Shown: positions 2,501 through 15,907 of the stretch, in pieces | Numbering within the stretch: the first letter of the stretch is position 1 | Layout of the letters: every line of letters starts with the position of its first letter | From: Gammaproteobacteria bacterium 13_2_20CM_66_19 | GTDB lineage: Bacteria > Pseudomonadota > Gammaproteobacteria > Steroidobacterales > Steroidobacteraceae | Direction: 5' to 3' | Assembly: GCA_001914695.1 (NCBI GenBank) | Contig: MNCZ01000017.1 | Span: 1 to 60,668 of the forward strand | Length of the DNA stretch: 60,668 nucleotides | Notes under the pieces: generated by a model | What the model was told of the DNA's origin: nothing | The model's input: the letters and a program-made list of their open reading frames with translations, nothing else | Database searches by the model: none | Position numbers and translations under genes: made by a program

Positions 2501-2644
2501 ATCGTGCCTGCGCCGCTCCCGCCCTGGCTCGCCAATGACTTGCGACGCGCTTGTGACTTAATACACTCCCGCTCACGCGGAGACTGTAAAGTCCGCGCCA
2601 CGTGTCGCCGGGGTTGGCGCGTAGCGCGGAGGAAAGTGAGAGTC

Positions 2645-2890
2645 ATGTCAGTGAAGTCCACGATCGTGTCCCAGTTCGAGCAGGTCGCCACCGAGCAGGA
2701 GCGCAAACTCGCGCGACTCAGCGACGACACCAAGCTCATCGAGTGCGGCCTCGACTCGCTGAGCTTTGCGATCATCGTCGCGCGCCTCGAGGATTCCCTC
2801 GGTGTCGATCCCTTCAGCGCCGAGCGCGCCGTGGACTTTCCGGTGACCTTCGGCGATTTCGTCACCCTGTACGAAGGCCTTGCCAAGTAA
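2645..2890 (+). CDS. Acyl carrier protein
   Basis: An 81-residue stand-alone carrier protein. The phosphopantetheine attachment site is S38 in the motif CGLDSLSFAII, followed by the acidic second helix typical of ACPs. I chose the ATG at 2645 because GGAGGA lies about 10 bp upstream and the next two genes overlap the frame; upstream in-frame codons would add residues foreign to the family. It opens an operon with an AMP-forming ligase (11-bp overlap) and a short-chain reductase (8-bp overlap), which points to a dedicated loading and reduction unit and not to the housekeeping fatty-acid ACP, normally found beside fabD/fabG/fabF. The cargo cannot be read from the sequence. Confidence 0.88.
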   Translation: MSVKSTIVSQFEQVATEQERKLARLSDDTKLIECGLDSLSFAIIVARLEDSLGVDPFSAERAVDFPVTFGDFVTLYEGLAK

Positions 2891-4277
2891 GCCGCGCTCG
2901 CTGTGGGACTCGATCACGGCCGCCGGACCGCCCGCCGGCTCGCTCTACGGCTGTGGCGGCGGGGTCGCGCTCGCCGGGCTTGCGCACGCCTCGATCCTCG
3001 GCGGGCGGCTCGAGGAGCTGCGCGGCCGTTCGGTGCTGCTCGCCATTACAGATCAGCTCACCGCGGCTCTCGCGATCGCTGAGCTCGACGGGGTGGCGAG
3101 GCGGATGGTGCTCCTGACGCCCGGGCTCGCCGCCGAACACCTGCCGGCCGTCATCGCGGGCGCCGCAGCCGATGCCCGCGTGCAGGATACCGACCGCTGT
3201 TCGCCGGGCCGCGAGATCGGCATCGGGATCTCGGTCGATGCCCGGGCGCGGCTCGAGCCCCACCCGGTGAGGCGGGCGAGCACGTGTGAGACCGAGTGGA
3301 TTCTCCTCACTTCCGGTACCACCGGTGCACCGAAGCTCGTGCAACACGATCTGGCGAGCCTCACCGCCGCGCTCGCCGATCGCCCGCCGGCGCCCGAGGT
3401 CGTCTGGGCCACCTTCTACGACATCCGGCGCTACGGCGGGCTGCAGATCTACCTCCGCGCGCTGCACGCGGGCTCGCTGGTGCTGTCGGATCCCGCAGAG
3501 CCTCTGATCGGCTTCCTCGCCCGGGCCGCCGCGGCCGGAGTCACCCACATCTCGGGGACCCCCTCGCACTGGCGGCGGGTGCTGATGAGCGGTGCCGCCG
3601 CGACCATCGCGCCGCGCTACGTGCGCCTCTCGGGCGAGATCGCCGACCAGGCAATCCTCGACGGGCTCAAGGCCGCGTATCCCGAAGCAACCGTCGCGCA
3701 TGCCTTCGCCTCGACCGAGGCGGGAGTCGCTTTCGAGGTCCGCGACGGCCGCGCCGGCTTTCCTGCGACGCTGCTCGATGCACCGGGATCCCCGGTGCAC
3801 CTGCGCGTGGCGGAGGGGACGCTGCGCATCCGCTCGGCCGGCAACGCGCACGGCTACCTGGGCGTGGACACCGGGTCATTCCCGCGAGCATCCGATGACG
3901 CAGTCGATACCGGGGACCGCATCGAGCAGCGCGCGGATCGCTGTTACTTTCTCGGCCGTCAGGGCGGAGTGATCAACGTCGGGGGACTCAAGGTGTACCC
4001 GGAAGAGATCGAGGCGGTCATCAACTCTCATCCCTGGGTGCGCATGTCGCGGGTCAGCGCGCGGCGCAACCCGATCACGGGTGCCGTGGTCGTCGCCGAC
4101 GTAGTGCTCGCCGAGGCGGACGGCACCGGCGGGCGTCCGCCGTCCGAGGCGCTCGAGCGCGAGCTCCTTCACAGCTGCCGGCGATCGCTCGCGCCCTACA
4201 AGGTGCCGGCCGCCATCCGCATCGTGCCGGGGCTCGAGGTGTCGGCCGCCGGCAAGCTGGCGCGACCTGATGCGTAA
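2880..4277 (+). CDS. AMP-forming acyl/aryl acid ligase (acyl-CoA or acyl-ACP synthetase)
   Basis: ANL-superfamily adenylating enzyme of 465 residues, expected to activate a carboxylic acid as an acyl-adenylate and pass it to CoA or, given the neighbour, to the carrier protein just upstream. The phosphate-binding loop is TSGTTGAPK, the hinge region reads YFLGRQGGVINVGGLKVYP, and the C-terminal catalytic Lys is in AAGKLARP. It is shorter than typical acyl-CoA ligases because the N-terminal part is reduced. Translation appears to start at TTG 2880, 11 bp inside the carrier-protein gene; there is no in-frame ATG nearby, so translational coupling is likely. The substrate is unknown. Confidence 0.82.
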   Translation: MPSKPRSLWDSITAAGPPAGSLYGCGGGVALAGLAHASILGGRLEELRGRSVLLAITDQLTAALAIAELDGVARRMVLLTPGLAAEHLPAVIAGAAADARVQDTDRCSPGREIGIGISVDARARLEPHPVRRASTCETEWILLTSGTTGAPKLVQHDLASLTAALADRPPAPEVVWATFYDIRRYGGLQIYLRALHAGSLVLSDPAEPLIGFLARAAAAGVTHISGTPSHWRRVLMSGAAATIAPRYVRLSGEIADQAILDGLKAAYPEATVAHAFASTEAGVAFEVRDGRAGFPATLLDAPGSPVHLRVAEGTLRIRSAGNAHGYLGVDTGSFPRASDDAVDTGDRIEQRADRCYFLGRQGGVINVGGLKVYPEEIEAVINSHPWVRMSRVSARRNPITGAVVVADVVLAEADGTGGRPPSEALERELLHSCRRSLAPYKVPAAIRIVPGLEVSAAGKLARPDA

Positions 4278-5001
4278 TGTCATCGTCACCGGCGCGAGCC
4301 GTGGCCTCGGCTTCGTGATCAGTACGGCGCTCGCAGCGGCCGGCTACCGGGTGATCGCGATCGCGCGGCATGAGACCGCGGAGCTGCGCGCCGCCGCCGC
4401 GGCGAGCGAGGCGCAGCGCGGCGCGCTCGAGTTCCGGGCCTTCGACCTCGCGCAGATCGGGGCTATCGCTAAGCTCGCCGCCAGCCTCCACGAGGAGTAC
4501 GGCCCGCTCTACGGGCTCGTCAACAACGCCGGAATCGGCACGACGGGCGTACTCGGCCTCATGCCGGACGCCGCGATCGCGGAGCTGCTGCGCCTCAACG
4601 TCGAGTCGCCGGTCGTGCTCACGAAGTACGTCGTGCGGCGCATGATGAGCGAGCGGGCAGGGCGCATCGTCAACATCTCCTCGATCGTGGCTGCGACCGG
4701 TTACCACGGACTGTCGGTCTACTCCGCGACCAAGGCGGCGCTCGGCGGGTTCACCCGCTCGCTCGCTCGCGAGGTGGGGCCGCTCGGCATCACGGTGAAC
4801 GCGGTGGCGCCGGGATTCGCCGACACGCAGATGACGCGCGCGCTCGTTGCGGATCAGCGCGAAAAGATAGTGCGGCGAAGCGCGCTGCGGCGCCTGATCG
4901 GGGTCGAGGATGTCGCAGCCGCGGTCGAGTTCCTGCTGAGCGACGCCGCGAAGAACATCACCGGCACGACGCTGACCGTGGACGCGGGCAACACCGCTTG
5001 A
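4270..5001 (+). CDS. Short-chain dehydrogenase/reductase, FabG-like
   Basis: NAD(P)H-dependent oxidoreductase of 243 residues with a Rossmann fold. The cofactor loop is TGASRGLG, the structural motif NNAG, and the catalytic Ser-Tyr-Lys set lies in NISSIVAAT and YSATKAAL; the C-terminus (TGTTLTVDAG) is typical of FabG-type 3-oxoacyl-ACP reductases. It overlaps the ligase gene by 8 bp and is the last gene of the carrier-protein operon, so reduction of a carrier-bound beta-keto group is a reasonable role. It is convergent with the acyl-CoA synthetase gene that ends 21 bp away. The exact substrate is inferred only. Confidence 0.85.
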   Translation: MRNVIVTGASRGLGFVISTALAAAGYRVIAIARHETAELRAAAAASEAQRGALEFRAFDLAQIGAIAKLAASLHEEYGPLYGLVNNAGIGTTGVLGLMPDAAIAELLRLNVESPVVLTKYVVRRMMSERAGRIVNISSIVAATGYHGLSVYSATKAALGGFTRSLAREVGPLGITVNAVAPGFADTQMTRALVADQREKIVRRSALRRLIGVEDVAAAVEFLLSDAAKNITGTTLTVDAGNTA

Positions 5002-5021
5002 AGGCCGGGCCCGGCGGTGTC

Positions 5022-6812
5022 CTAGGGGCGCACCTGCCCGGCGAGCAGGCGCTGGTAGAGCGGTACGTCGAGGCGCTGGTACTCCTGCCGTGCGGCATCG
5101 CCGAGGTAGAGCTCGTCGCTCACCGTGCGTGGATCGTAGCCCTCGCGCGCGAGCTCGCGCGTTCGCTGCTTGAAGGTGCCGGTGAGCTCGAGTGCGGCCA
5201 CGATCCGCAAGAAGAGCGGCCGCGCGTAAGGGGGCAGCTCCGCCGTGACCTTGCGGTGCAGCTCCCCGAGCTCGAAGCCGGCGCCCGTCACGATCGCCGC
5301 CATCCCGGCGCGGCCGTCCGCGTCTGGCACCGGGACGCCGTAGACCGCCACCTCGGTCACGCCGCGGCAACGGCCGATCACGTCCGCGACCTCCGTGGTC
5401 GACACGTTCTCTCCCTTCCAGCGGAAGGTATCGCCGACCCGGTCGACGAAATAGAAGAATCCCTGCGCGTCGCGGCGCATCAGATCGCCGCTGCGATACC
5501 AGGCGTCGCCCGGGGAGAACGCCTCGCGCAGCACCTTGCTGCGCGAGGCGGCGGGATCGGCGTAGCCCTCGAAGCGAGTGGTGCCGTGATCGTCCAGAAT
5601 CTGACCGATCGCCTCGCCCACCTCGTCCGCGGCGCAGCGCACGCAGTGGCCGCGCGCGTCGCGAAGCGGGGCGCCCGCCTCGACGTCGAAGCGCACGATC
5701 TCGACCGGCATGCGGTGCGCGAGAAAGGGCGGGATCCGCCCGATCGACCCCGGGCGACCCTCGCAGTTGTAGAGCGAGAAGTTGCCTTCGGTCGCGGCGT
5801 AATACTCGAGGATCTGCGGGATGCGAAAGCGCTGCTGGAATTCCCGCCAGACTTCCCCGCGCAGACCGTTGCCGCAGGCGAGGCGCAGCACGTGCTGGCT
5901 CTCCGCGGCCTGATGCGGCGCGTTGACCAGATAGCGGCACAGCTCGCCGATGTACTGGAAGAGCGTGCAGCGCTCGGCGGCGACGTCCTGCCAGAAGCGG
6001 CTCACCGAGAAGCGCTCGCGCACCACGACCGCGGCGCCGCCGACCAGGGCCGCGCCGCACGCGACGACCCCGCCCACGCTGTGATACATCGGCAGGCAGT
6101 TGTAGAGCCTGTCGTGCGGCTGCACGTCGATCAGGCCCGCGAACCACTCGCTCCATTGCATGAGGCGCAGGTGACTCACGATGGCGGCCTTCGGCAGGCC
6201 CGTGGTGCCGGAGGTGTAGATGTAGAGCGCGCGGTCGGCGAGCGCGGGCGGCGCGCGCTCCGCGGGACGCAGCGGCTCGCCCGGCAGACCCGCCACCTCG
6301 AGGTCGAGGCGCGGCAGATCGTGCGCGCCGGGCCCGTGCGCCGAGCAGCCGACCCCGGCGGCGAGCCGACTGCGCACCGCCGCGAGCGCGCGAGAGAGTT
6401 CGGCGCCCGCGATCACGTGGCGCGGCGCGACGATGCCGAGCGCGTGCGCGAGCGGCTCGCCCGTCAGATTGGTGTTGATGAGCGCGACCGTGGCACCGAT
6501 GCGGCTAAGGCCGAGCCAGATCGCCAGGTACTGCGGGCAGTTCTTCATGAGAAGGCACACGACATCGCCCGGGGCGAGGCCCCGTGCAAGGCCCCAGCGG
6601 GCGTAGCGGTTCGCGGCCGCGGCGAGCTCGCGATAGCCGAGCGTGCCCTCCGAGCCGATGAGAGCCGGGGCATCCGCGAAGCGCCCCGCAAGCCGCTCGA
6701 TCAGGACGGGGAGGGTGACGGAGGGATCGCGACCGACGGCGGCGGTGCGCTCGAGCGCGCGGATCCACGCCTTGAGAGGCGATCGGACGCTTTCATCAGG
6801 TGTAGCTATCAT
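5022..6812 (-). CDS. Long-chain/very-long-chain acyl-CoA synthetase, FATP/FadD6 type
   Basis: AMP-forming acyl-CoA synthetase of about 596 residues in the fatty-acid-transport-protein group. The P-loop is YTSGTTGLPKAA; family landmarks include LPMYHSVGG, YYAATEGNFS (typical of the FATP branch), YRSGDLM, FVDRVGDTFRWKGENVSTTEV, and the C-terminal catalytic Lys in LTGTFKQRT. I take the ATG at 6812 (MIATPDES) as the start; a longer frame to 6893 adds a charged, unrelated extension. The gene faces the carrier-protein operon and has its own promoter region, shared with the divergent metY leader. Likely role: activation of long-chain acids for degradation or lipid synthesis. Confidence 0.85.
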   Translation of the reverse strand: MIATPDESVRSPLKAWIRALERTAAVGRDPSVTLPVLIERLAGRFADAPALIGSEGTLGYRELAAAANRYARWGLARGLAPGDVVCLLMKNCPQYLAIWLGLSRIGATVALINTNLTGEPLAHALGIVAPRHVIAGAELSRALAAVRSRLAAGVGCSAHGPGAHDLPRLDLEVAGLPGEPLRPAERAPPALADRALYIYTSGTTGLPKAAIVSHLRLMQWSEWFAGLIDVQPHDRLYNCLPMYHSVGGVVACGAALVGGAAVVVRERFSVSRFWQDVAAERCTLFQYIGELCRYLVNAPHQAAESQHVLRLACGNGLRGEVWREFQQRFRIPQILEYYAATEGNFSLYNCEGRPGSIGRIPPFLAHRMPVEIVRFDVEAGAPLRDARGHCVRCAADEVGEAIGQILDDHGTTRFEGYADPAASRSKVLREAFSPGDAWYRSGDLMRRDAQGFFYFVDRVGDTFRWKGENVSTTEVADVIGRCRGVTEVAVYGVPVPDADGRAGMAAIVTGAGFELGELHRKVTAELPPYARPLFLRIVAALELTGTFKQRTRELAREGYDPRTVSDELYLGDAARQEYQRLDVPLYQRLLAGQVRP

Positions 6813-6906
6813 TAACGCCCGCGTGACCGGCGCGGGCGCACCGCGCGGCGCGAAGTCGCCGAGCGGCCCCTTTCGATGCCGGTCGCACGTCACGCGATTC
6901 TATAGC

Positions 6907-6959
6907 GTGAGGCATCTCATTGCGTGAGGCGCAAGGATGAAGTGAGGCGCCAGGATGAA
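6907..6959 (+). repeat. Three imperfect 17-18 bp direct repeats forming the metY leader, with a two-codon upstream ORF
   Basis: GTGAGGC recurs at 6907, 6924 and 6942. The last two units (6924-6941 and 6942-6959) are 18-bp copies differing at one position, and each carries AGGATGAA. The first ATG (6936) therefore starts a minimal frame ATG AAG TGA, and the second ATG (6955) is the metY start. The translation initiation site has thus been duplicated, leaving a two-codon reading frame 10 bp upstream of the real start. Whether this is regulatory or a neutral duplication cannot be told from the sequence. Confidence 0.7.
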
Positions 6960-8235
6960 GCCCGAAACCATTGCTCTGCACGGCGGCTACGGCGGCGACC
7001 CCACCACCAAGGCGGTCGCAGTCCCCATCTACCAGACCGTCGCCTACTCCTTCGACAGCGCGGCGCACGGCGCGGCGCTCTTCGACCTCGAGGTCGAGGG
7101 CTATCGCTACACCCGCATTGGCAATCCGACCGTTGATGTGCTCGAGCGCCGTATCGCCGAGCTCGAGGGCGGAATCGATGCGCTCGCCGTCGCCTCCGGC
7201 CAGACGGCGGTGTACTACACCATGCTGAACCTCGCCCAGGCCGGCCAGAACATCGTCTCGGTCCCGCAGCTCTACGGCACGACTCATACGCTCTTCGCGC
7301 ACATCCTGCCGCAGCTCGGAGTGAGGGTGCGCCTCGCCAGGTCGGACAGTCCCGCCGAGCTCGAGTCGCTGATCGACGCGGACACGCGCGCGCTCTTCTG
7401 CGAGACGGTCGGGAACCCCGCGGGCAACATCTGCGATCTCGAGGCGCTCGCGGCGGTCGCGCGCCGCGCGCACATCCCGCTCGTGGTCGACAACACCGTC
7501 GCGACCCCGATCCTCTGCCGGCCGATCGACTACGGCGCCGACATCGTGGTGCACTCGCTCACCAAATTCCTCGGCGGACACGGCACGAGCCTCGGCGGGG
7601 CGATCGTCGACAGCGGCCGCTTCCCCTGGGCGAAGCACGCGGCGCGCTACCCGAGGCTCACGCAGCCGGACGAGTCCTACCACGGGCTCGTCTACACCGA
7701 GCACTACGGGGCGAAGGCGTTTCTCGGCCGCGGCCGCAGCGTCTTCCAGCGGACCATGGGCGCGGTGCTCTCGCCCTTCAACGCCTTCCTGCTGCTGCAG
7801 GGGATCGAGACGGTGGCGCTGCGGGTCGAGCGGCACGTCGCGAACGCGCGTCGCGTCGCGGAATTCCTCCGCGCCGACCGCCGGATCAGCTCGGTGAGCT
7901 ACGCCGGCTTCCCCGACAATCCCCACCATGCACTCTGCCAGAAGTACCTCGGGGGGCGCGCCTGTTCGCTCATGACGTTCGAGATCCGCGGCGGATACGA
8001 CGCCGGCACACGCTTCTACGACGCGCTCGAGCTCTTCAAGCGCCTCGTGAACCTCGGCGATGCCAAGTCGCTCGCCTGCCACCCCGCCTCGACCACCCAC
8101 CGGCAGATGTCCGCCGAGGAGCAGCGGCAAGCCGGCCTCGGGCCTGCCACGATGCGCCTGAGTGTCGGCATCGAGCACATCGACGACATTCTCGCCGACC
8201 TCGACCAGGCGCTCGCCGCGGCGACCCGCGCGTGA
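6955..8235 (+). CDS. metY: O-acetylhomoserine/O-succinylhomoserine sulfhydrylase (MetY family)
   Basis: PLP-dependent Cys/Met-metabolism enzyme of 426 residues that replaces the acyl group of an activated homoserine with sulfide or a thiol. PLP binding is shown by YRYTRIGNPT, SGQTAVYYT, the Asp in VVDNTVATP and the Schiff-base Lys K204 in VHSLTKFLGGHG. The length (about 425) fits MetY better than the shorter MetB/MetZ proteins. The start ATG 6955 has CAGG just before it, inside a duplicated leader. The next gene overlaps by 4 bp (GTGA). A MetA-family protein is encoded about 3 kb downstream, which could supply an acyl-homoserine, but see that entry. Confidence 0.88.
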   Translation: MKPETIALHGGYGGDPTTKAVAVPIYQTVAYSFDSAAHGAALFDLEVEGYRYTRIGNPTVDVLERRIAELEGGIDALAVASGQTAVYYTMLNLAQAGQNIVSVPQLYGTTHTLFAHILPQLGVRVRLARSDSPAELESLIDADTRALFCETVGNPAGNICDLEALAAVARRAHIPLVVDNTVATPILCRPIDYGADIVVHSLTKFLGGHGTSLGGAIVDSGRFPWAKHAARYPRLTQPDESYHGLVYTEHYGAKAFLGRGRSVFQRTMGAVLSPFNAFLLLQGIETVALRVERHVANARRVAEFLRADRRISSVSYAGFPDNPHHALCQKYLGGRACSLMTFEIRGGYDAGTRFYDALELFKRLVNLGDAKSLACHPASTTHRQMSAEEQRQAGLGPATMRLSVGIEHIDDILADLDQALAAATRA

Positions 8236-9695
8236 GTGAGCGGCCCATGACGAGCCGAGCCCCTCTGCCGCCGCCCGTCGCGGCGCTCTTTCCGCCGCGG
8301 GACGAGCGCGAGCGGATCGATGAGCTCCTCGGCCGCGAGCTCGCCGAAGCGACCGCGCGCGTCGTCGCCGGGCCGGTCATGCCGACGCTCGAGCGGGAGA
8401 GGCTGCGCCGCGAGCTCGAGCCGTTCGATTTCGCTCGCCCGCGGCCGCTCGAGGAGCTGATCGCCTGGGCGATCGGTGTGATGGAGCAGGGGGTGGTTCA
8501 TATGAACAACCCGCGCTATTTCGGGCTCTTCAATCCGCCGGCCAGCTTTCCCTCGCAGTGCGCCGATCGCATCTCGGGAGCCTTCAACCCGCAGCTTGCG
8601 AGCTCGGGCTCCTCTCCCGCCCCGGTCGAGATCGAGGCGCACGTGATCCGTGCTTTCGCGCGCCGCGCGGGACTTCCGGCGGCGAGCGGCGGGCACTTCA
8701 CCACCAGCGGCTCGGAAGCCAACTACACCGCACTCGTCTGCGCACTCACCAGGGCAGAGCCGCGCTTCGGCACCGACGGCGTGCGGGCCTTCCCCGGCCC
8801 GGTGGCGATGTATACCTCGCGCGCCTGCCAGCCGGCCTGGTTCAAGATCGCGCATCACGCCGGGATCGGACGCGCGGCGCTCAAGCTCATCGACACCGAC
8901 GGCAGCGGCCGCATGCACGTCGCCGCGCTCGAGGCAGCCGTGAAGCGCGATCGCGCGGCAGGGGTCGTCCCGGTGCTCGTCTCGCCGACCGCGGGGACCA
9001 CCGGAGCGGGGATGATCGATCCGCTCGCCGAGTGTGCGCGCATCGCGCGCGAGCACGGCGCCTGGTACCACGTCGATGCGGCCTGGGGCGGGGCGGCGCT
9101 CGCCTCCGAGCGGCTGCGCGGCCTTCTCGCCGGGATCGAGACGGCGGATTCGATCACCATCGATGCCCACAAGTGGCTCGCCACCACCATGGGGTGCGGC
9201 ATGTTCATCACCCGCTACCCGCAGACACTGAGCGAAGCCTTTCGGGTCACGGCGGAATTCATGCCCTCGAGCGACACCCAGCTCGACCCCTACCTCAATT
9301 CCCTGCAGTGGTCGCGGCGCTTCATGGGGCTGCGGCTGTTCCTGTCGCTCGCCGCCGGAGGCTGGGAGGGCTACGCGGCGCACGTGGAGCGAGCCGCGGC
9401 CGTGATCGAGCGGGTGAAAGAGGGGCTGTCGGCGCGCGGCTGGACGATCGCCAACGACTCGGCGCTCGCGGTGCTGTGCGCCCTGCCGCCGCCGGGCGCA
9501 CCCCCCGTGCGCGAGATCGTCCGCCGGATGCTCGAGTCCGCGCGCGCCTGGGCCGCGGTCGCGATCCACGAAGGGCGGGACGTGGTCAGGATCTGCGCGA
9601 CGCACGGCGAGACGTCCGAGGGCGATGTCGAGGCGCTCGTCGGCGCTCTCGAGGCGGCATGCTTGGAACCCACCGTCGCTGAGGTTCCGCGATGA
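8232..9695 (+). CDS. Group II pyridoxal-dependent amino acid decarboxylase
   Basis: PLP enzyme of 487 residues in the aromatic-L-amino-acid/diaminobutyrate decarboxylase group. Visible motifs are FTTSGSEANYTAL (phosphate and ring binding), SPTAGTTGAG, HVDAAWGG with the pyridine-N Asp, and the Schiff-base Lys K314 in DAHKWLATT. The GTG start overlaps the metY stop (GTGA), and its own end overlaps the next gene by 4 bp, so metY, this gene and the aldo/keto reductase form one operon. The substrate amino acid cannot be assigned. Coupling to metY suggests a non-standard or sulfur-containing amino acid, which is inference only. Confidence 0.85.
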   Translation: MSERPMTSRAPLPPPVAALFPPRDERERIDELLGRELAEATARVVAGPVMPTLERERLRRELEPFDFARPRPLEELIAWAIGVMEQGVVHMNNPRYFGLFNPPASFPSQCADRISGAFNPQLASSGSSPAPVEIEAHVIRAFARRAGLPAASGGHFTTSGSEANYTALVCALTRAEPRFGTDGVRAFPGPVAMYTSRACQPAWFKIAHHAGIGRAALKLIDTDGSGRMHVAALEAAVKRDRAAGVVPVLVSPTAGTTGAGMIDPLAECARIAREHGAWYHVDAAWGGAALASERLRGLLAGIETADSITIDAHKWLATTMGCGMFITRYPQTLSEAFRVTAEFMPSSDTQLDPYLNSLQWSRRFMGLRLFLSLAAGGWEGYAAHVERAAAVIERVKEGLSARGWTIANDSALAVLCALPPPGAPPVREIVRRMLESARAWAAVAIHEGRDVVRICATHGETSEGDVEALVGALEAACLEPTVAEVPR

Positions 9696-10813
9696 CGATA
9701 CGGAGTGAGTCCGGTCTGACACGTCGGACGTTGTTGACGGGAGGCGCGTTCGCGGGCCTCCTGGCTGCTGGCGCGCTGGGGCGGGCCTGGCAAGAGTTGC
9801 AGCGTTTGAAGTACGACCCCGAGACAGAGCTTCCTTCGACAGCTCCGGAGGTCGTTGCGCGGGTGGGCGCCATGCCCTATCGGCGCTTCGGGGCCACTGG
9901 TTTGCAGGTTTCGGAGATCGGTTTTGGCGCTTGGGCTATCGGTGGGAAGGCGTACGGCGCCGTCGACGTCAAGGACTCGCTCAGGGCTCTGGCACGGGCC
10001 GAGGAGCTGGGCTGCAATCTCGTCGATACGGCTTCGGCGACGGTCTACGGGGACTCGGAGCTCGTCTTAGGGGAGTTTCTGCGCGAACGTCGCAGCCGTT
10101 GGATCGTCGCGACCAAGTACTCCTTCCAGCCCGAGGGCATGACCGCGACGCTGGAGGCGCAGCTCAAGCGCCTCGGCACCGATGCGATCGACTTTTATCA
10201 GCTGCATTGGCTGCCTGGGGACCCTCACCTGTACGACGAGCTGTACGGACTCAAGAAGGCCGGCAAGGTGCGCTTCATCGGTGCCTCGATCTATGCGGCC
10301 AGTGATATCGACCATGTCATCGACCACTTGCACCTCGACGGCGTGCAGCTGCCCTTCAGTCTCCTCGATCCCGATCCGTTTCTGCTGCGGGTCGACCGGT
10401 TGCGGCAGAGGGGTCTGGCGGTCCTCATTCGCTCTGCGCTGAAGGAAGGCTTCCTTACGGGCAAATTCCGACGCGATGCGACCTTCCCCGACCCGAACGA
10501 CCAGCGGCATAGCTGGAGCGCGGAGAAAATCTCGCGCACGTTCGATGAGGTCGAGCGGTTTAGATTCCTGGAGGCGGATGCCGGATCGCTGTTGCGAGCC
10601 GCCGTGGCCTATCCGTTGTCCTACCCGGAGGTGTCGTCGGTTCTGCTCGGGACGAAGACCGCGGCTCAGGCGGAGAGCAACTTCCATGAGATCCCGGGTG
10701 CGCGCCTCAGCACCCCCAGTCTGCACAGGATACTGACGCTACAGGACGAGATGGATGCAGGTGGCCGGCGCAGGCCGGGGGCGCTCGTCCGTCGAGTGCT
10801 GGGTTTGTCGTGA
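9692..10813 (+). CDS. Aldo/keto reductase with a Tat-type signal
   Basis: Aldo/keto reductase of 373 residues preceded by an N-terminal twin-arginine-like signal (TRRTLLTGG at about 10-18, then a hydrophobic stretch GAFAGLLAAGALG). The catalytic tetrad can be followed: Asp in NLVDTA, Tyr in TVYGDSE, Lys in VATKYSF and His in QLHWLP. The enzyme family uses NAD(P)H, which is not thought to be available outside the cytoplasm, so export would be odd; the protein might stay tethered on the inside or use another cofactor. It overlaps the decarboxylase by 4 bp. Base composition is slightly lower in G+C than the flanking genes, with more TTG and GTT codons. Confidence 0.85.
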   Translation: MTIRSESGLTRRTLLTGGAFAGLLAAGALGRAWQELQRLKYDPETELPSTAPEVVARVGAMPYRRFGATGLQVSEIGFGAWAIGGKAYGAVDVKDSLRALARAEELGCNLVDTASATVYGDSELVLGEFLRERRSRWIVATKYSFQPEGMTATLEAQLKRLGTDAIDFYQLHWLPGDPHLYDELYGLKKAGKVRFIGASIYAASDIDHVIDHLHLDGVQLPFSLLDPDPFLLRVDRLRQRGLAVLIRSALKEGFLTGKFRRDATFPDPNDQRHSWSAEKISRTFDEVERFRFLEADAGSLLRAAVAYPLSYPEVSSVLLGTKTAAQAESNFHEIPGARLSTPSLHRILTLQDEMDAGGRRRPGALVRRVLGLS

Positions 10814-10823
10814 TCGCGGACGG

Positions 10824-10840
10824 CGAGGGTCTAACCCTCG
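10824..10840. terminator. Hairpin between convergent operons
   Basis: A perfect 7-bp stem (CGAGGGT/ACCCTCG) with a 3-nt loop sits exactly where the reductase gene and the carrier-protein gene converge; the loop is the carrier-protein stop codon. There is no T-tract on either side, so it may be a weak bidirectional terminator or simply a protective 3' hairpin. Confidence 0.4.
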
Positions 10841-11115
10841 GCGGCGAGCAGCCGCCTCACCAGCGCCTCAACCGAATTGATCGAGCGGAAGTTCTCCGGC
10901 GTGATCTCGTTCTGGGGAATGCTGAGATCGAACTCCACCTCGACCGACAACATCAGGCTCACCATCTTGAGAGAGCTCACGCCGAGCTCACTCAGCGCGG
11001 CCTCCGGCGCGAGGCTCGGTCCTGCGCCCGGTCTATCGAGGACCTTCTCGACGAGGCCGAGCAGCCGGTGGCGCAGCGCGAACTGCGGCTTTGGATCCTC
11101 GGCAGCCGGGCTCAT
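10831..11115 (-). CDS. Carrier protein of the amino acid:[carrier protein] ligase system
   Basis: A 94-residue carrier protein. The attachment site is atypical: LGVSSLKMV with S48 as the probable phosphopantetheine Ser (SSL in place of DSL). The following region (FDLSIPQNEITPENFRSI) has the E-I-T-P-E-N-F wording seen in carrier proteins that accompany seryl-tRNA-synthetase-like ligases. Its ATG overlaps the stop of the MetA-like gene (ATGA), so the two are translationally coupled. A ligase gene of the matching type lies 2.3 kb away in the divergent operon. Expected role: hold an amino acid as a thioester for modification. No NRPS modules are nearby. Confidence 0.85.
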   Translation of the reverse strand: MSPAAEDPKPQFALRHRLLGLVEKVLDRPGAGPSLAPEAALSELGVSSLKMVSLMLSVEVEFDLSIPQNEITPENFRSINSVEALVRRLLAAEG

Positions 11116-12122
11116 GGCCCGGCCAATGATACTTCTTCCGCGCTGCTCGCTCTGGCGGCGGCAATGAAATCAAGCCAGTTGCGGTAGAGGGTGACGGCGG
11201 CGGGGCGCCAGGTGTTGCGAAGCGTCGCGGCCGCGGCGGCAAACGGAAAGTCCTCGAGGAGTGCGGGCGAGCGCTCCCCGAGTGCGCGTGCCTCGAATGC
11301 CTCGAGGAGCTCGCGCCCCTCGGCACTCAGATACCCCTGCGGCAGCGTCGGGTAGTGAGACTGCTGGCCATTGAGATAGCGCCCCACATCGCGCCGGTAT
11401 TCCTTGAGGAGAGTCGTGTCTTCGTACTCCGGATGGCCCTGGAAGAAGAGCATGAGACTCTGGTCGTGGCGCACGAAGGCGTCGGCGCCGCTCTCGGGGG
11501 AGAAGCTGAGGATCTCGTAGCCGGCCGCGCGCAGCGCCTCGACCGGCAGCTCGTTCCAGCGCGAGTGCGGCATGGGGAGTGGCGCGCTCACACCGTCGAG
11601 CAGCGCATGGCCGGCGAGAATGTCGTGCGCAAACACCCCACAGCGTTTCTCGGCGAGGCGTCGCCGCTGAATGCCGTCGATACTCTCGACGACCGCGTGC
11701 GCCGCGAGGCATGACCAGATGCTCGCCACCGCGTGCTCCTCCGCCCAGGTGATCAGCTCGACCAGGCGCCTCCAATAGGGCTCATCGGCCAGGCGAGCGG
11801 CGATCGGCTCGGTACCGGTGACGATGAGCGCGTCGGGCTCCGCGGCGAGGAGCGTCTCGATCGGCCAGTAGCCGCGCGCGATGCGCGCGCGGGCGTCCGG
11901 GCCGCGCGGCACCTCCGGCAGTGACGAGAAGCGCAGCTGCACCGAGTGCCTCCCGGCTGCGGCTGCGAGCAGGGCGGAGAACTGTGCCTCGGTGGAGGCG
12001 AGCGCCGCGTCCGGCATGTTGTTGACCAGGCCGACGAATATCGCGCCGTCGCACCGGGTGGACGACACGGGGGCGCGCCGGGGGTGGGGTGGGGCGGTGT
12101 GCGCCTCGATCTCTACCGACAT
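11112..12122 (-). CDS. MetA-family (homoserine O-succinyltransferase-like) protein
   Basis: Class-I-amidotransferase-fold acyltransferase of 336 residues related to MetA. The nucleophile is C138 (IWSCLAAHA), with H230 and E232 in FFQGHPEYE, and the conserved PHSRWNE is at 185-191; the Cys-to-His spacing is as in E. coli MetA. The loop that sets acyl-donor choice in MetA reads VTGTEPIAAR, and the aligned position has Ile, neither the Gly of succinyl-CoA enzymes nor the Glu of acetyl-CoA enzymes. Coupling to a carrier-protein gene suggests the acyl partner may be carrier-bound and not CoA. It could still make O-acylhomoserine for the MetY encoded nearby. Function beyond the family is unproven. 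Confidence 0.75.
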   Translation of the reverse strand: MSVEIEAHTAPPHPRRAPVSSTRCDGAIFVGLVNNMPDAALASTEAQFSALLAAAAGRHSVQLRFSSLPEVPRGPDARARIARGYWPIETLLAAEPDALIVTGTEPIAARLADEPYWRRLVELITWAEEHAVASIWSCLAAHAVVESIDGIQRRRLAEKRCGVFAHDILAGHALLDGVSAPLPMPHSRWNELPVEALRAAGYEILSFSPESGADAFVRHDQSLMLFFQGHPEYEDTTLLKEYRRDVGRYLNGQQSHYPTLPQGYLSAEGRELLEAFEARALGERSPALLEDFPFAAAAATLRNTWRPAAVTLYRNWLDFIAAARASSAEEVSLAGP

Positions 12123-12164
12123 GGGTTTTCAGCTCAGGGGTTGTGACGCCGGCCAATAGTCAGA

Positions 12165-12205
12165 AAGACCTATGTGTCTTCATTCTCCAGCATTGTTTTA
12201 ACAAT
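12165..12205. promoter_or_regulatory. Divergent promoter region with two palindromes
   Basis: The 121-bp gap between the MetA-like gene (minus) and the flavoprotein gene (plus) is the most AT-rich stretch nearby. It holds a perfect palindrome ATTGTT-TT-AACAAT at 12192-12205, overlapping a possible -10 element (AATATAAG), and a weaker inverted repeat AAGAC-CTATGT-GTCTT at 12165-12180. Its position suggests one regulator controlling both operons of the carrier-protein system. No regulator gene lies within the locus. Confidence 0.5.
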
Positions 12206-12243
12206 ATAAGTTGAGCCAGTGAGCCGGGAGGTTCATTAGCTTG

Positions 12244-13455
12244 ATGGAAGCTCAGCTGCTGACGGAGGTGGCCCGCGGAATCGGCGGCGCCGCGACCGGC
12301 GATCCCGGGGTGCGTGCCCAGCGCGTTGCGCAGGTTGCGGCCCAACACGCGGTCGAGGTCGACAGCGCCGCCCGATTCCCCCACGAGGCCGCGGCCGCGC
12401 TCAAGGCCGAGCGACTGCTCGGTATCCTGGTACCGAAGTCGCTCGGTGGGGAGGGCCTCGCGCTCGGCGACGTGGCCGACATCTGCTTCCTCCTCGGGCA
12501 GTCCTGCTCATCGACCGCCATGATTTACGCGATGCACCAGGTGAAGATCGGGTGCATCACGCGTCACATGGGAAGGAGCCGCGCGCTCGAGCGCATCCTG
12601 ACCGCGCTGTGCGCCGAGCAGCTGCTGCTCGCGTCCTCGACGACCGAGGGGCAGGGCGGGGGCAACATCCGCTCGAGCGAGGCGCCGGTCGAGCACCACG
12701 ACGGCGGGCGCATCAGTCTCGAGCGCCGCGCGAGCGTCATTTCCTACGGCGCCCACGCGGACGGCGTCGTCACCACGGCCCGCCGCGCTGCCGATGCCGC
12801 CCCGTCCGATCAGGTGCTGATCGCCTTCCTCAAGAGCGACTACACGCTGACCCGCCTGCAGGGCTGGGACGCGCTCGGCATGCGCGGCACCTGCAGCGAG
12901 GGCTACACGCTCAAGGCGCAGGGGGACGCCGGGCAGATTCTGCCCGAGCCCTACGAGGTGATTCACTCGCGCACCATGGTGCCCTTCGCACACCTGCTGT
13001 GGGGCTCAGTGTGGGCGGGCATAGCCGCCGGCGCGACGCAACGCGCGCAGGCCTTCATCCGCAACGCCATGCGTCACGGCAACGGACAGCTGCCGCCCGG
13101 CGCCCCCCAGTTCACCAAGGCGCTGACGACGCTGCGGACGCTGCGCAGCATGCTGGCCACGTCGCTCCGCAGCTACGAGAACTGCATGCACGACCCGAAG
13201 GCGCTCGCCGCGCTCGACTTTCAGACCCTGATCACGCTCACCAAGGTCGAGGCCTCGGAGCTCGCCGCCGCGACCGTGATGAGCGCCATGCGGGCCTGCG
13301 GCCTCTCGGGCTATCGCAATGACGGCGACTACACGATCGGACGATACCTGCGCGACGTGTTGTCCTCACCCATCATGATCAACAACGACCGCATCCTGGC
13401 CAACCTGGCGCCTTCGGCGCTCGTGAGCCCGATTCCGAGGTTCCTCCGCGAATGA
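12244..13455 (+). CDS. Acyl-CoA dehydrogenase-like flavoprotein
   Basis: FAD-dependent protein of about 403 residues with the three-domain acyl-CoA dehydrogenase fold: N-terminal helical part (FPHEAAAALKAERLLGILVP), middle beta domain (ASSTTEGQGGGNIRSSEAPV and ALGMRGTCSEGYTL), C-terminal helical bundle. The usual catalytic-base Glu near the C-terminus is not in its normal motif; the region reads SSPIMINNDRIL, as in the monooxygenase or oxidase side branches. ATG 12244 is preferred over TTG 12241; GGGAGG lies about 12 bp upstream. It overlaps the ligase gene by 4 bp. A likely role is oxidation of the carrier-bound aminoacyl group, as acyl-CoA-dehydrogenase-like enzymes do to prolyl-carrier proteins in pyrrole pathways; that parallel is inference. 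Confidence 0.82.
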   Translation: MEAQLLTEVARGIGGAATGDPGVRAQRVAQVAAQHAVEVDSAARFPHEAAAALKAERLLGILVPKSLGGEGLALGDVADICFLLGQSCSSTAMIYAMHQVKIGCITRHMGRSRALERILTALCAEQLLLASSTTEGQGGGNIRSSEAPVEHHDGGRISLERRASVISYGAHADGVVTTARRAADAAPSDQVLIAFLKSDYTLTRLQGWDALGMRGTCSEGYTLKAQGDAGQILPEPYEVIHSRTMVPFAHLLWGSVWAGIAAGATQRAQAFIRNAMRHGNGQLPPGAPQFTKALTTLRTLRSMLATSLRSYENCMHDPKALAALDFQTLITLTKVEASELAAATVMSAMRACGLSGYRNDGDYTIGRYLRDVLSSPIMINNDRILANLAPSALVSPIPRFLRE

Positions 13456-14408
13456 GCGCCGCCCACCCGGAGCCCCTGCGCGCGAGTGCGTCACGGGCTC
13501 ACGAGGGCGCCGAGGCGCCCGATCCGCTCTCCGGCCTTGCGCCGGCGCTCTTCATGGGGCTCGGGTCCGACGGGGTCTACGCCCGCACGGCACTCTACGA
13601 GCGCGTGTTGGAGCGTCTCGCGGCGCTGATCGATCGACTGCGGGATGTGCGCGCCGAGGTGCTGCGCTTCCCGCCCGTCATGAACCGCCGCCAGCTCGAG
13701 AGGTCGGGTTACCTGAAGAGCTTCCCGAACCTCCTCGGCTGCGTATCCGTGCTGCACGGCAGCGAGGCCGCGATCCGGGCGGCCGCCGATCGCTGCGAAA
13801 CGGGCGGCGACTGGACGGCCTCGCTCGGCGCCGCCGACCTGGTGCTGACGCCGGCGGCTTGCTATCCGCTGTATCCGCTCGTGGCCGGCCGCGGACCGCT
13901 GCCGCCCGGCGGGCTCATCTTCGACGTCGCAGCCGACTGCTTCCGTCGCGAGCCCTCGCGCATGCTCGACCGGCTGCAGTCCTTCCGGATGCGCGAGTTC
14001 GTGCGCTTCGGCTCACCGGAGGACATCGTGGCGTTCCGCGAAGGCTGGATCGCGCGCGCCCGGGAGCTCGCCGCCGAGCTCGCGCTGCCGTACGCGGTCG
14101 ACATCGCGAACGACCCGTTCTTCGGCCGAGTGGGGCAGTTGATGGCCGTGAGCCAGCTGCAGCAGTCGCTCAAATTCGAGCTGCTGATCCCCTACCACGC
14201 CCGCGCCAGGCCCACCGCCTGCATGAGCTTCAACTACCACCGTGAGCATTTCGGTCAGGTGTGGGGCATCAAGGGCAGCGGCGCGGAGCCGGCGCACACC
14301 GGCTGCGTGGCCTTCGGCATCGACCGCCTCGCCGTGGCGCTGTTCGCAAATCACGGCCTCGACCCCGATCAATGGCCGGCATCGGCGCGCCGCACGCTCG
14401 CGCTGTGA
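13452..14408 (+). CDS. Amino acid:[carrier protein] ligase, class II seryl-tRNA-synthetase homologue
   Basis: Protein of 318 residues matching the catalytic core of atypical (methanogen-type) seryl-tRNA synthetases without the tRNA-binding domain. Family landmarks: FPPVMNRRQLERSGYLKSFP (73-92), motif 2 around CFRREPSRMLDRLQSFRMRE (163-182), motif 3 HTGCVAFGIDRLAVALF (282-298). The three expected zinc ligands are C137 (LTPAACYPLYP), E182 (MREFVRFG) and C285. Characterised members activate a small amino acid with ATP and load it on a partner carrier protein, not on tRNA. The partner here is encoded at 10831-11115. ATGA overlap joins it to the flavoprotein gene. The amino acid used cannot be predicted with confidence. 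Confidence 0.88.
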   Translation: MSAAHPEPLRASASRAHEGAEAPDPLSGLAPALFMGLGSDGVYARTALYERVLERLAALIDRLRDVRAEVLRFPPVMNRRQLERSGYLKSFPNLLGCVSVLHGSEAAIRAAADRCETGGDWTASLGAADLVLTPAACYPLYPLVAGRGPLPPGGLIFDVAADCFRREPSRMLDRLQSFRMREFVRFGSPEDIVAFREGWIARARELAAELALPYAVDIANDPFFGRVGQLMAVSQLQQSLKFELLIPYHARARPTACMSFNYHREHFGQVWGIKGSGAEPAHTGCVAFGIDRLAVALFANHGLDPDQWPASARRTLAL

Positions 14409-14423
14409 GCGGCCAGTAATGCA

Positions 14424-14497
14424 CCCCACGAAATCAAGCATCACACGAACAGCGGGTGACTGCGGTCCATCAAGACGCTTGATTTCGCGGGGACCCC
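14424..14497 (-). repeat. Dispersed hairpin element, single copy
   Basis: On the minus strand two 16-nt arms, CCCCGCGAAATCAAGC and GCTTGATTTCGTGGGG, pair along their whole length with one G-T wobble and enclose 37 nt beginning GTCTTGGATGG. A GGGGT precedes the first arm. The same architecture, arm ends, wobble position and loop start occur twice at 18571-18736 on the plus strand, but three adjacent base pairs of the stem differ and remain complementary. The element lies just after the amino acid:carrier protein ligase gene. It may be a REP-like element, a bidirectional terminator or a small structured RNA. Confidence 0.8.
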
Positions 14498-14544
14498 GCT
14501 AGGCGCCGCGAATCGCCCGCCCCCCAGCTCCCGCGGGAGAGTCC

Positions 14545-15546
14545 ATGCCACTCGATCCGCGCGCCAAGCGCTTCCTCGACACTCTGGCGGCTTCGGGGGC
14601 TGCCAACACTCTCGCGCTCACGGTCGAGCAGCGCCGCCGCTCGCTCGCGCAACTGCTCAGCTTCGCCGGACCCTTGCCGACGGTCGGCGGCGTCGAGGAG
14701 CGGACTTTCCCTCGGCCCGCCTCCTCGCTCCGGGTGCGGATCTACGCGCCGGCCGGGGTCGGCGCCCACGAGGTGCTACCGGGACTCGTCTACTTTCACG
14801 GTGGGGGACTCGTCGCCGGGAGTCTCGAGACACACGACGGCATCTGCCGGGCGCTCGCCGCCGCCAGCCGCTGCCGCCTGCTCTCCGTCGATTACCGCCT
14901 CGCCCCCGAGCATTCCTTCCCGGCCGCGATCGACGATGGCCTCGCGGCGACCTGGTGGGTCGCTACCCACGCCGCCGAACTCGGGCTCGATCCCGATCGC
15001 CTCGGGGTGTGCGGCGACTCTGCGGGGGCGACGCTCGCCGCCGTCGTATGTCAGTCCGCCGCCGCCCTCGGGCAGCCGCGCCTCGCCTGTCAGTTCCTCC
15101 TCTGTCCGATCATGGATTACGCTGCGGAGAGCGACTCGCGCCGCAGCCTCGCGCAGGGTTACCTCATCGACCGGGCGACCCTCGAGCACGACCTGCGGCA
15201 CTACCTCGGTCCCGAGGCCGACCGCGCCGACCCGCGCGTCTCGCCGCTGCGCGCGCCTGGAGTCATGAATCTCCCGCCCACGGTCATCCACACCGCCGAG
15301 TTCGATCCGCTGCGCGACGAGGGGGCGGCTTACGCCGAACGGCTGCGGGAGGCGGGGGTCAAGATCACTTACCGCTGCCACCCCGGTATGATTCATCTCT
15401 TCTATGGCCTGGGTGCGCTCATTCCCTATGCCGGCGCCGCCTTCGGGCTCATGGGCGCGGATGTCGGCTCCCTGATGGCGAAGCCGGCGAAGACGATGAT
15501 CCCGGCGGGGAGAGAACTCGAAGATGAGCGGGCGCCGCCAGGTTGA
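14545..15546 (+). CDS. Alpha/beta hydrolase of the hormone-sensitive-lipase family
   Basis: Esterase-like protein of 333 residues, probably cytoplasmic. The oxyanion-hole motif is YFHGGGLVAGS, the nucleophile Ser is in CGDSAGATLAA, the acid in AEFDPLRDEG and the His in GMIHLFYG, a complete HSL-family triad. The start is ATG 14545 with GGGAGAG about 7 bp upstream. It ends 23 bp inside the next gene, so the two are cotranscribed. It follows the ligase gene at 136 bp with the hairpin element between, and may or may not belong to the same pathway; an esterase or thioesterase could release a carrier-bound product. Confidence 0.85.
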   Translation: MPLDPRAKRFLDTLAASGAANTLALTVEQRRRSLAQLLSFAGPLPTVGGVEERTFPRPASSLRVRIYAPAGVGAHEVLPGLVYFHGGGLVAGSLETHDGICRALAAASRCRLLSVDYRLAPEHSFPAAIDDGLAATWWVATHAAELGLDPDRLGVCGDSAGATLAAVVCQSAAALGQPRLACQFLLCPIMDYAAESDSRRSLAQGYLIDRATLEHDLRHYLGPEADRADPRVSPLRAPGVMNLPPTVIHTAEFDPLRDEGAAYAERLREAGVKITYRCHPGMIHLFYGLGALIPYAGAAFGLMGADVGSLMAKPAKTMIPAGRELEDERAPPG

Positions 15547-15907
15547 AGAGCTTCTGCAGGGCCTGCACGCCGCCCGTATCGAGGGCAGTCTCGAGCGGGT
15601 GTGCGCATGCTTCTCCCCCGATGCGCGGCTGCGCATCGCAGGCTCGAGCGACGGCAAGCCGATCGCGATCGCCGCCGCCGGCATCAGCCAGATCCGCCCC
15701 TGGCTTGGCATCCTGGTCAAGACCTTCCGGTTGAGCGGCTACGAACTGCGCTCGCTCACCATCGAGGGCACACGGGCCGCGGCTCACTGGCGCGTCGACA
15801 TACACTCCAAGATCACCGGCGCGATGGTCGCGACCGAGCTCGTCGATCTCATCGAGGTGCGCGACGGGCGCATCGGCTCGTTCGTCGAATTCTTCATGCC
15901 GTGCTGA
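15524..15907 (+). CDS. SnoaL/NTF2-like protein
   Basis: A 127-residue protein of the cone-shaped NTF2-like alpha+beta fold (SnoaL-like or ketosteroid-isomerase-like). Typical wording is LLQGLHAARIEGSLERVCACF followed in the C-terminal half by a beta sheet (AAAHWRVDIHSK, VDLIEVRDGRIGSFVEFF). Members bind small hydrophobic ligands and act as isomerases, cyclases or hydrolases, or only as binding subunits; no catalytic residue can be named here. It starts 23 bp inside the esterase gene, indicating coupled expression, and the GNAT gene follows 49 bp later in the same direction. Confidence 0.72.
   Translation: MSGRRQVEELLQGLHAARIEGSLERVCACFSPDARLRIAGSSDGKPIAIAAAGISQIRPWLGILVKTFRLSGYELRSLTIEGTRAAAHWRVDIHSKITGAMVATELVDLIEVRDGRIGSFVEFFMPC

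Follow-up and report, generated by a model that had tools for sequence, protein, structure and literature searches.

Amino acid:[carrier protein] (aa:CP) ligases have been known since 2010, and structures are available. The closest described system is the pair of Bll0957 (Amino acid:[carrier protein] ligase 1), which we take to originate from Bradyrhizobium, and aminoacyl carrier protein 1 (Protein Data Bank (PDB) entries 3mey and 4h2s). Another described system is the DUF1839-type cluster, in Agrobacterium with the carrier Atu2571, Atu2574 and a ligase that is presumably Atu2573, which likewise combines a carrier protein (CP), a flavoprotein of the acyl-CoA dehydrogenase (ACAD) fold and a ligase. 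Published papers describe the DUF1839-type neighbourhood with a glycosidase in 2010 (PMC2922099), predict DUF1839 to be papain-like (PMC10318531) and, in a 2022 review, call the biological role of aa:CP ligases unknown (PMC9437257). Here a stretch of 60,668 nucleotides (the window; contig MNCZ01000017.1 of the soil bacterium Gammaproteobacteria bacterium 13_2_20CM_66_19) was analysed, in which a relative of Bll0957 is encoded beside a CP, an ACAD-fold flavoprotein and a MetA-like protein. Where the DUF1839-type clusters hold DUF1839 and a GH2-type glycosidase, the window has MetA, MetY and acyl ligases. We consider it rather likely that these core genes belong to a pathway of specialised metabolism that is conserved and comprises about 13 genes, with the MetA-like protein acylating homoserine for MetY.

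The core consists of two divergent gene pairs. The 94-amino-acid CP with the phosphopantetheine serine S48 (10831..11115) and the MetA-like homoserine O-acyltransferase of the HTS family (11112..12122) are encoded on the minus strand, whereas the ACAD-fold flavoprotein, a putative carrier-bound aminoacyl oxidase or oxygenase (12244..13455), and the aa:CP ligase (13452..14408) are encoded on the plus strand. Both pairs are coupled by an ATGA overlap, the ACAD gene ending at 13455 with the ligase ATG at 13452, and the MetA-like gene ending at 11112 with the CP start at 11115. The ACAD ATG at 12244 is the second codon of an open reading frame (ORF) starting with TTG at 12241, and this M2 is invariant in a 38-row alignment. 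Between it and the MetA-like ATG at 12122 lies a divergent intergenic region of exactly 121 bp (12123..12243). The four ORFs, their positions, both couplings and the gap were as an original prediction, made from the window sequence, had described them. The single shared promoter region that it placed in the gap is a positional assignment only, as a search of 12050-12320 gave no sigma-70-like site. Across the gaps of the window and 18 relatives little conservation was seen, except for TCACA near the metA-like start (14 of the 19 rows).

The ligase scored 437.8 bits on NF005479 (cut-off 357), and its residues 21-317 matched the Bll0957 chain (3mey and others) with 198 of 297 positions identical (67%). 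Residues C137, E182 and C285, presumably the zinc ligands, aligned with C, E and C of that chain and were invariant in 58 of 58 ligases of both groups described below (two distant rows excluded). The tRNA-binding domain is absent from this 318-amino-acid protein, of which residues 125-310 alone matched type-2 seryl-tRNA synthetase (SerRS; residues 307-503 of 527). The CP scored 32.4 bits on PF00550 (cut-off 20.8), and its closest PDB chain was 4h2s_C, 'Aminoacyl carrier protein 1' (67 bits), with S48 aligned to its Ser; on the acyl carrier protein family NF005480 (PRK07081) it stayed below the cut-off (46.7 bits vs 72). Because the ligase is 67% identical to Bll0957 and the carrier is nearest to the co-crystallised partner of Bll0957, the two are, by their sequences, close relatives of the studied pair, and this part of the system is not new. 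The predicted aminoacyl-tRNA synthetase-like core and the ligase with a cognate-type carrier were thus both borne out, and the ligase, as a relative of tRNA-charging enzymes, probably loads an amino acid on the small carrier.

The wider distribution of the ligase was followed in a phylum sample of 398 genomes, of which 28 had a ligase over the cut-off and 44 had any match. Near the ligases over the cut-off, the window not being counted, an ACAD gene was found in 27 of 27 loci, as expected of a flavoprotein partner, a CP in 24 of 27 (pairwise search) and a MetA-like gene in 3 of 27. In a tree of 60 ligases (rows outside 260-360 amino acids, e.g. L044, L054, L055 and L064, were dropped), 44 rows including the window formed a group, clade B, with a support of 96/100, the MetA-like gene being present at the locus or elsewhere in the genome. 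The DUF1839 ligases occupied 14 rows in two neighbouring groups, and two further rows were distant. Six clade-B rows (L058-L063) share 94-95% identity with Bll0957, which belongs to clade B together with the window ligase. In one tree row only, L157, the locus combines a MetA-like gene with a DUF1839-type ligase set.

Further relatives of the ligase and carrier were seen elsewhere. Plasmid-borne ligase relatives amounted to 94 records, all below 60% identity, from Azospirillum, Rhizobium, Burkholderia, Mycetohabitans, Streptomyces and others, and viral contigs searched with the ligase gave no relative. A longer, distant relative (ORFs of about 400-445 amino acids, 97-113 bits to the window ligase P0004) occurs in other families at L071-L078, without an ACAD gene and without a CP except for one weak match in L072. 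The solved chain 8zt4, 'Carrier protein,GNAT family transferase', matched the window CP at 30.8 bits. A GNAT-like protein, recognised by eye and a candidate carrier-to-acceptor transferase, lies beside the ligase in L058 and L118 and after the MetA-like gene in L141; neither Pfam nor NCBIfam gave a label to the GNAT-like ORFs in L058, L068 and L128.

Loci with a MetA-like gene were collected by a genome scan with a five-member alignment, which gave 367 relatives, the best 80 of which were kept; many of these loci are clipped by contig ends, a few share one metagenome-assembled genome (MAG), and G110 recurs as L093. With our own score thresholds for neighbours, a ligase was found in 35 of the 80 loci, a CP in 33 and an ACAD gene in 33. 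All four core genes were observed together in 30 loci, and the exact order and strands of the window recurred in 21. Since the same order and strands are kept in 21 of 80 related loci, the four-gene arrangement is beyond chance; the flavoprotein and MetA-like genes do co-occur with the ligase and carrier, as the original prediction had anticipated. The conserved unit extends far beyond the core four, to about 13 genes at 2504-15907. Its most frequent additional member is MetY, an O-acylhomoserine aminocarboxypropyltransferase-like protein (6955..8235, plus strand; TIGR01326, 592 bits, cut-off 495), present in 61 of the 80 loci. When only the loci spanning 18 kb or more are counted (31), 29 contain MetY and 16 the ligase.

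The association was also observed at the level of whole genomes. When 32 ligase-bearing genomes were searched with the window MetA-like protein (P0002), all 13 clade-B genomes gave a match with 42-62% identity, whereas 13 of the other 19 had none and six had only a distant MetA (27-29% identity). With the window genome added, all 14 genomes with a clade-B ligase had this MetA-like subfamily, versus 0 of the 19 others; of these 19, four were assigned by neighbours rather than by the tree, and in two (G080 and G248) the only ligase is a distant one. This supports the prediction that the MetA-like protein is part of the same system. Within one genus (code g160), three genomes have the clade-B ligase and the MetA-like gene, and two have the other ligase group and no MetA-like gene. 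Of 24 genomes of the window's family, only the two that belong to clade B and G085 carry the MetA-like gene, the one in G085 at 36% identity. The second AMP-forming ligase of the window, AMP2, showed a similar distribution, with 14 of 14 clade-B genomes versus 2 of 15 others (G122 and G337). The MetA-like gene lies apart from the ligase in nine of the 13 clade-B genomes, with some 20 kb between them on one contig in G417 and G297 and farther away or on another contig in the rest, and in all nine it adjoins metY.

The MetA-like protein scored 198.6 bits on PF04204 (cut-off 27) and 390 bits on NF003776 (cut-off 358), and stayed below the cut-off of the classical succinyl-type family TIGR01001 (123.9 bits vs 495). 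The MetA-family, carrier (PF00550) and acyl-CoA-dehydrogenase-like (PF02771 and PF00441) labels of the original prediction were all over their cut-offs. The triad C138/H230/E232 was invariant in 93 of 93 MetA-like sequences, as were R188, E241 and R244, which we take to be homoserine-binding residues. In Escherichia coli MetA, residue 111 sets the choice of acyl donor, being Gly in the succinyl type and Glu in the acetyl type. By alignment the window has I107 at this position, and 63 of the 93 rows have R or K; because the residue differs from Gly and Glu, an unusual acyl donor is possible. Since the catalytic residues are kept, the partnership with MetY also occurs without the ligase, and all 14 clade-B genomes give a separate MetX match, the MetA-like protein, as judged from these sequence features, more likely supplies MetY as a dedicated homoserine O-acyltransferase than unloads the carrier.

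The latter role was the one originally proposed. As a release enzyme, the MetA-like protein would accept the carrier's oxidised aminoacyl group on Cys138, forming an acyl-enzyme, and pass it to homoserine or another acceptor. This would fit the 4-bp overlap of metA-like and cp in the window and in L088, L089, L090, L096, L097 and L103, and also the residue-111 position, which could reflect an unusual donor. Against it, 43 MetA-like genomes have no ligase at the locus, and 27 of them lack one altogether; 23 of these 27 belong by title to Acidobacteria or Rokubacteria and four to Proteobacteria, and as all 27 are titled MAG they may be incomplete. The other 16 of the 43 have a ligase elsewhere and are all Proteobacteria by title, while for the 37 loci outside the 43 the ligase had already been seen (as a fragment only in L101) or the genome was covered through another locus. 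MetY was the steady partner in 20 of the 23 ligase-free Acidobacteria or Rokubacteria loci, and the other three reach a contig end. In the nine clade-B genomes mentioned above, metY-metA is distant from the carrier gene, and the putative homoserine-site residues are intact. We regard a release function as rather unlikely; the original interpretation appears half right, in that the system is conserved and the role of the MetA-like protein is more likely another one.

It is still less probable that the MetA-like protein and MetY simply perform ordinary methionine biosynthesis and stand by accident beside an unrelated ligase operon. The MetA-MetY methionine pair has the HTS acyltransferase triad and the MetY partner in common with the window, and NF003776 bears the name homoserine O-succinyltransferase. 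In the 398 genomes, 29 reached at least 292 bits on NF003776 (the next 211), 13 being the clade-B genomes; of the 16 others, 15 fall in family f55, and the last is G350, which has a MetA without MetY at the locus. The f55 genomes carry this same family as a solitary MetA-MetY pair (6 of 6 loci examined), and MetX gave no match above 21 bits in the three f55 genomes tested. By contrast, a separate MetX was matched at 353-491 bits in 13 of 13 clade-B genomes and at 355 bits in the window genome, the curated MetX cut-off of 500 bits being reached by no clade-B genome and by none of 14 control genomes. The MetA-MetY pair thus probably serves as the methionine route of f55, whereas in clade B it is probably a spare copy with a dedicated role. 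The window thus differs from the methionine pair in its separate MetX, in a residue-111 position that is neither Gly nor Glu and in its setting within a biosynthetic cluster. The 14 of 14 co-occurrence with the clade-B ligase, and the recurrent clustering with AMP ligases, ACP2 and a short-chain dehydrogenase in loci titled from several phyla, also argue against an accidental neighbourhood. In six loci of one genus code (L058-L063), genes for MTA phosphorylase and MTR-1-P isomerase (mtnP-mtnA; annotated in L058) follow cp; this link to methionine salvage was seen in these six only.

The attachment of amino acids to a sugar or lipid of the cell surface, proposed for the DUF1839 group in the note added in proof of the 2010 paper (PMC2922099), would fit the CP-ACAD-ligase core common to both ligase groups and is equally improbable here, as none of the 44 clade-B rows of the tree had a DUF1839 match at its locus, no GH2-type glycosidase was present in the clade-B loci drawn, and the clade-B surroundings consist of homoserine and acyl chemistry.

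The flavoprotein exceeded the cut-offs of both its Pfam families, and its AlphaFold model (pLDDT 92.4) has the ACAD fold. Foldseek ranked the FMN-bound DszC first for this model, and VIA-align gave a tie among dehydrogenases, DszC/TdsC and ColB1. In the profile search dehydrogenases were at the top (7p98, 85 bits), the best monooxygenase-titled chain being 5z8t (67 bits). The catalytic Glu of the YEGT loop is missing, with I380 at its place in the alignment with 3pfd, conserved in at least 90% of 38 rows. Since the true dehydrogenase 7p98 likewise lacks this Glu (Thr at that position), its loss is not decisive against dehydrogenation. The carrier-bound aminoacyl oxidases AnaB and ColB1 have a similar ACAD fold and, according to their PDB titles, act on carrier-tethered amino acids (for ColB1, assembly-line-tethered cysteine dehydrogenation); however, the window protein is only 17-18% identical to them, and its fold is equally near to FMN monooxygenases such as DszC, which with KijD3 represents the group D flavin monooxygenases. 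For the DUF1839 group, the 2010 note of Iyer and Aravind favours monooxygenation (PMC2922099). Oxidation of the aminoacyl group on the carrier is plausible and may be either a desaturation or an oxygenation.

The remaining members of the unit surround the core. A PLP-dependent decarboxylase (8232..9695, plus strand; PF00282) overlaps metY by 4 bp and was found in 39 of the 80 loci, and an acyl-CoA synthetase-like ligase of the PRK08279 type (5022..6893, minus strand; NF006134, 737.8 bits, cut-off 625) in 48. Three overlapping genes on the plus strand encode the second acyl carrier protein ACP2 (2504..2890, start codon uncertain; PF00550, 26.6 bits; 41 loci), AMP2 (2880..4277; PF00501; 44 loci) and a FabG-like short-chain dehydrogenase (SDR; 4270..5001; PF00106; 41 loci). 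Downstream of the ligase, also on the plus strand, lie an alpha/beta hydrolase (HSL-like), a possible release enzyme (14545..15546; PF07859; 26 loci), and a SnoaL-like protein (15524..15907; PF12680; 23 loci). An aldo-keto reductase gene (9692-10813), which overlaps the decarboxylase gene and has a twin-arginine-like signal at its start (TRRTLLTGG, read by eye), was kept off this list because it gave a single weak match among the 80 loci. P8 (15957-16991) was likewise rejected as a relative of the GNAT-like ORF in L128 (E 0.033).

From these genes a pathway can be sketched, of which we infer all substrates, reactions and the order of steps. The SerRS-derived ligase would adenylate a small amino acid, by analogy with studied relatives of the glycine or alanine class (PMC5370406), and load it on S48 of the 94-residue carrier, where the ACAD-fold flavoenzyme would oxidise the aminoacyl group. 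In parallel, the MetA-like protein would O-acylate homoserine, and MetY would exchange the acyl group for a nucleophile to give a gamma-substituted 2-aminobutyrate, on which the PLP decarboxylase would act; some relatives may use an aminotransferase and a TPP enzyme instead. The second ACP with AMP2 and the SDR, and the PRK08279-type ligase, would supply a further acyl unit, and the alpha/beta hydrolase or an acyltransferase may finally release or join the parts. Comparable roles are known in loline biosynthesis, where LolC and LolD perform gamma-substitution of a homoserine ester and then decarboxylation, and in valanimycin biosynthesis, where VlmD, VlmH, VlmL and VlmA combine a decarboxylase, a flavin N-oxygenase and SerRS-type activation; the likeness to the window is a gene-role analogy only.

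A more specific version is conceivable, and we hold it only tentatively. In this widespread, undescribed natural-product pathway, the carrier-oxidised, possibly N-oxygenated amino acid would give rise to the nucleophile that MetY couples to the MetA-activated homoserine unit, decarboxylation would follow, and a haem-oxygenase-like iron oxidase would replace the ligase-carrier-flavoprotein module in Acidobacteria and Rokubacteria. Among the 80 MetA-like loci, the haem-oxygenase-like oxidase (13 loci) and the ligase (35 loci) shared none, and the same applied to the PLP decarboxylase (39 loci) and the aminotransferase-IV/TPP pair (7 loci). The oxidase was seen in L116, L120-L122, L129 (with PF14518), L133, L144, L149, L152, L154, L159, L162 and L163, and the aminotransferase IV with the TPP enzyme in L124, L127, L128, L137, L141, L147 and L155. 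The oxidase is possibly a functional replacement of the ligase, or its distribution may follow taxonomy alone; both exclusion patterns track taxonomy and may be nothing else.

Several points weigh against the pathway in which the MetA-like protein serves MetY. The co-occurrence counts track a few lineages and are not independent, and therefore no p-value is given. MetA-like relatives are also present where this ligase is missing (in G085 and, within the phylum sample, in 16 genomes), AMP2 occurs without the clade-B ligase in G122 and G337, and the PLP decarboxylase is absent from the Bradyrhizobium loci. The metA-like/cp overlap, shared by the window and at least six relatives, also fits a direct reaction between the MetA-like protein and the CP.

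In summary, the clusters suggest a natural-product pathway that carries spare methionine-type enzymes. Co-occurrence, which extends to genomes where these genes lie apart, links the Bll0957 clade with MetY, a homoserine O-acyltransferase, a flavoenzyme and a second ACP ligase. In the open-licence literature, subscription journals being mostly outside the search, nothing was found that describes the MetA-like/MetY pair or the ACP2/AMP2/SDR trio with a Bll0957-clade ligase. Isolates with the system that could serve to find the product are Bradyrhizobium lablabi, B. jicamae, B. algeriense and Bauldia litoralis. The long-orphan ligase family thereby gains a testable role and a concrete list of pathway partners, and a two-unit pathway, if true, would explain the purpose of the orphan Bll0957 ligase.

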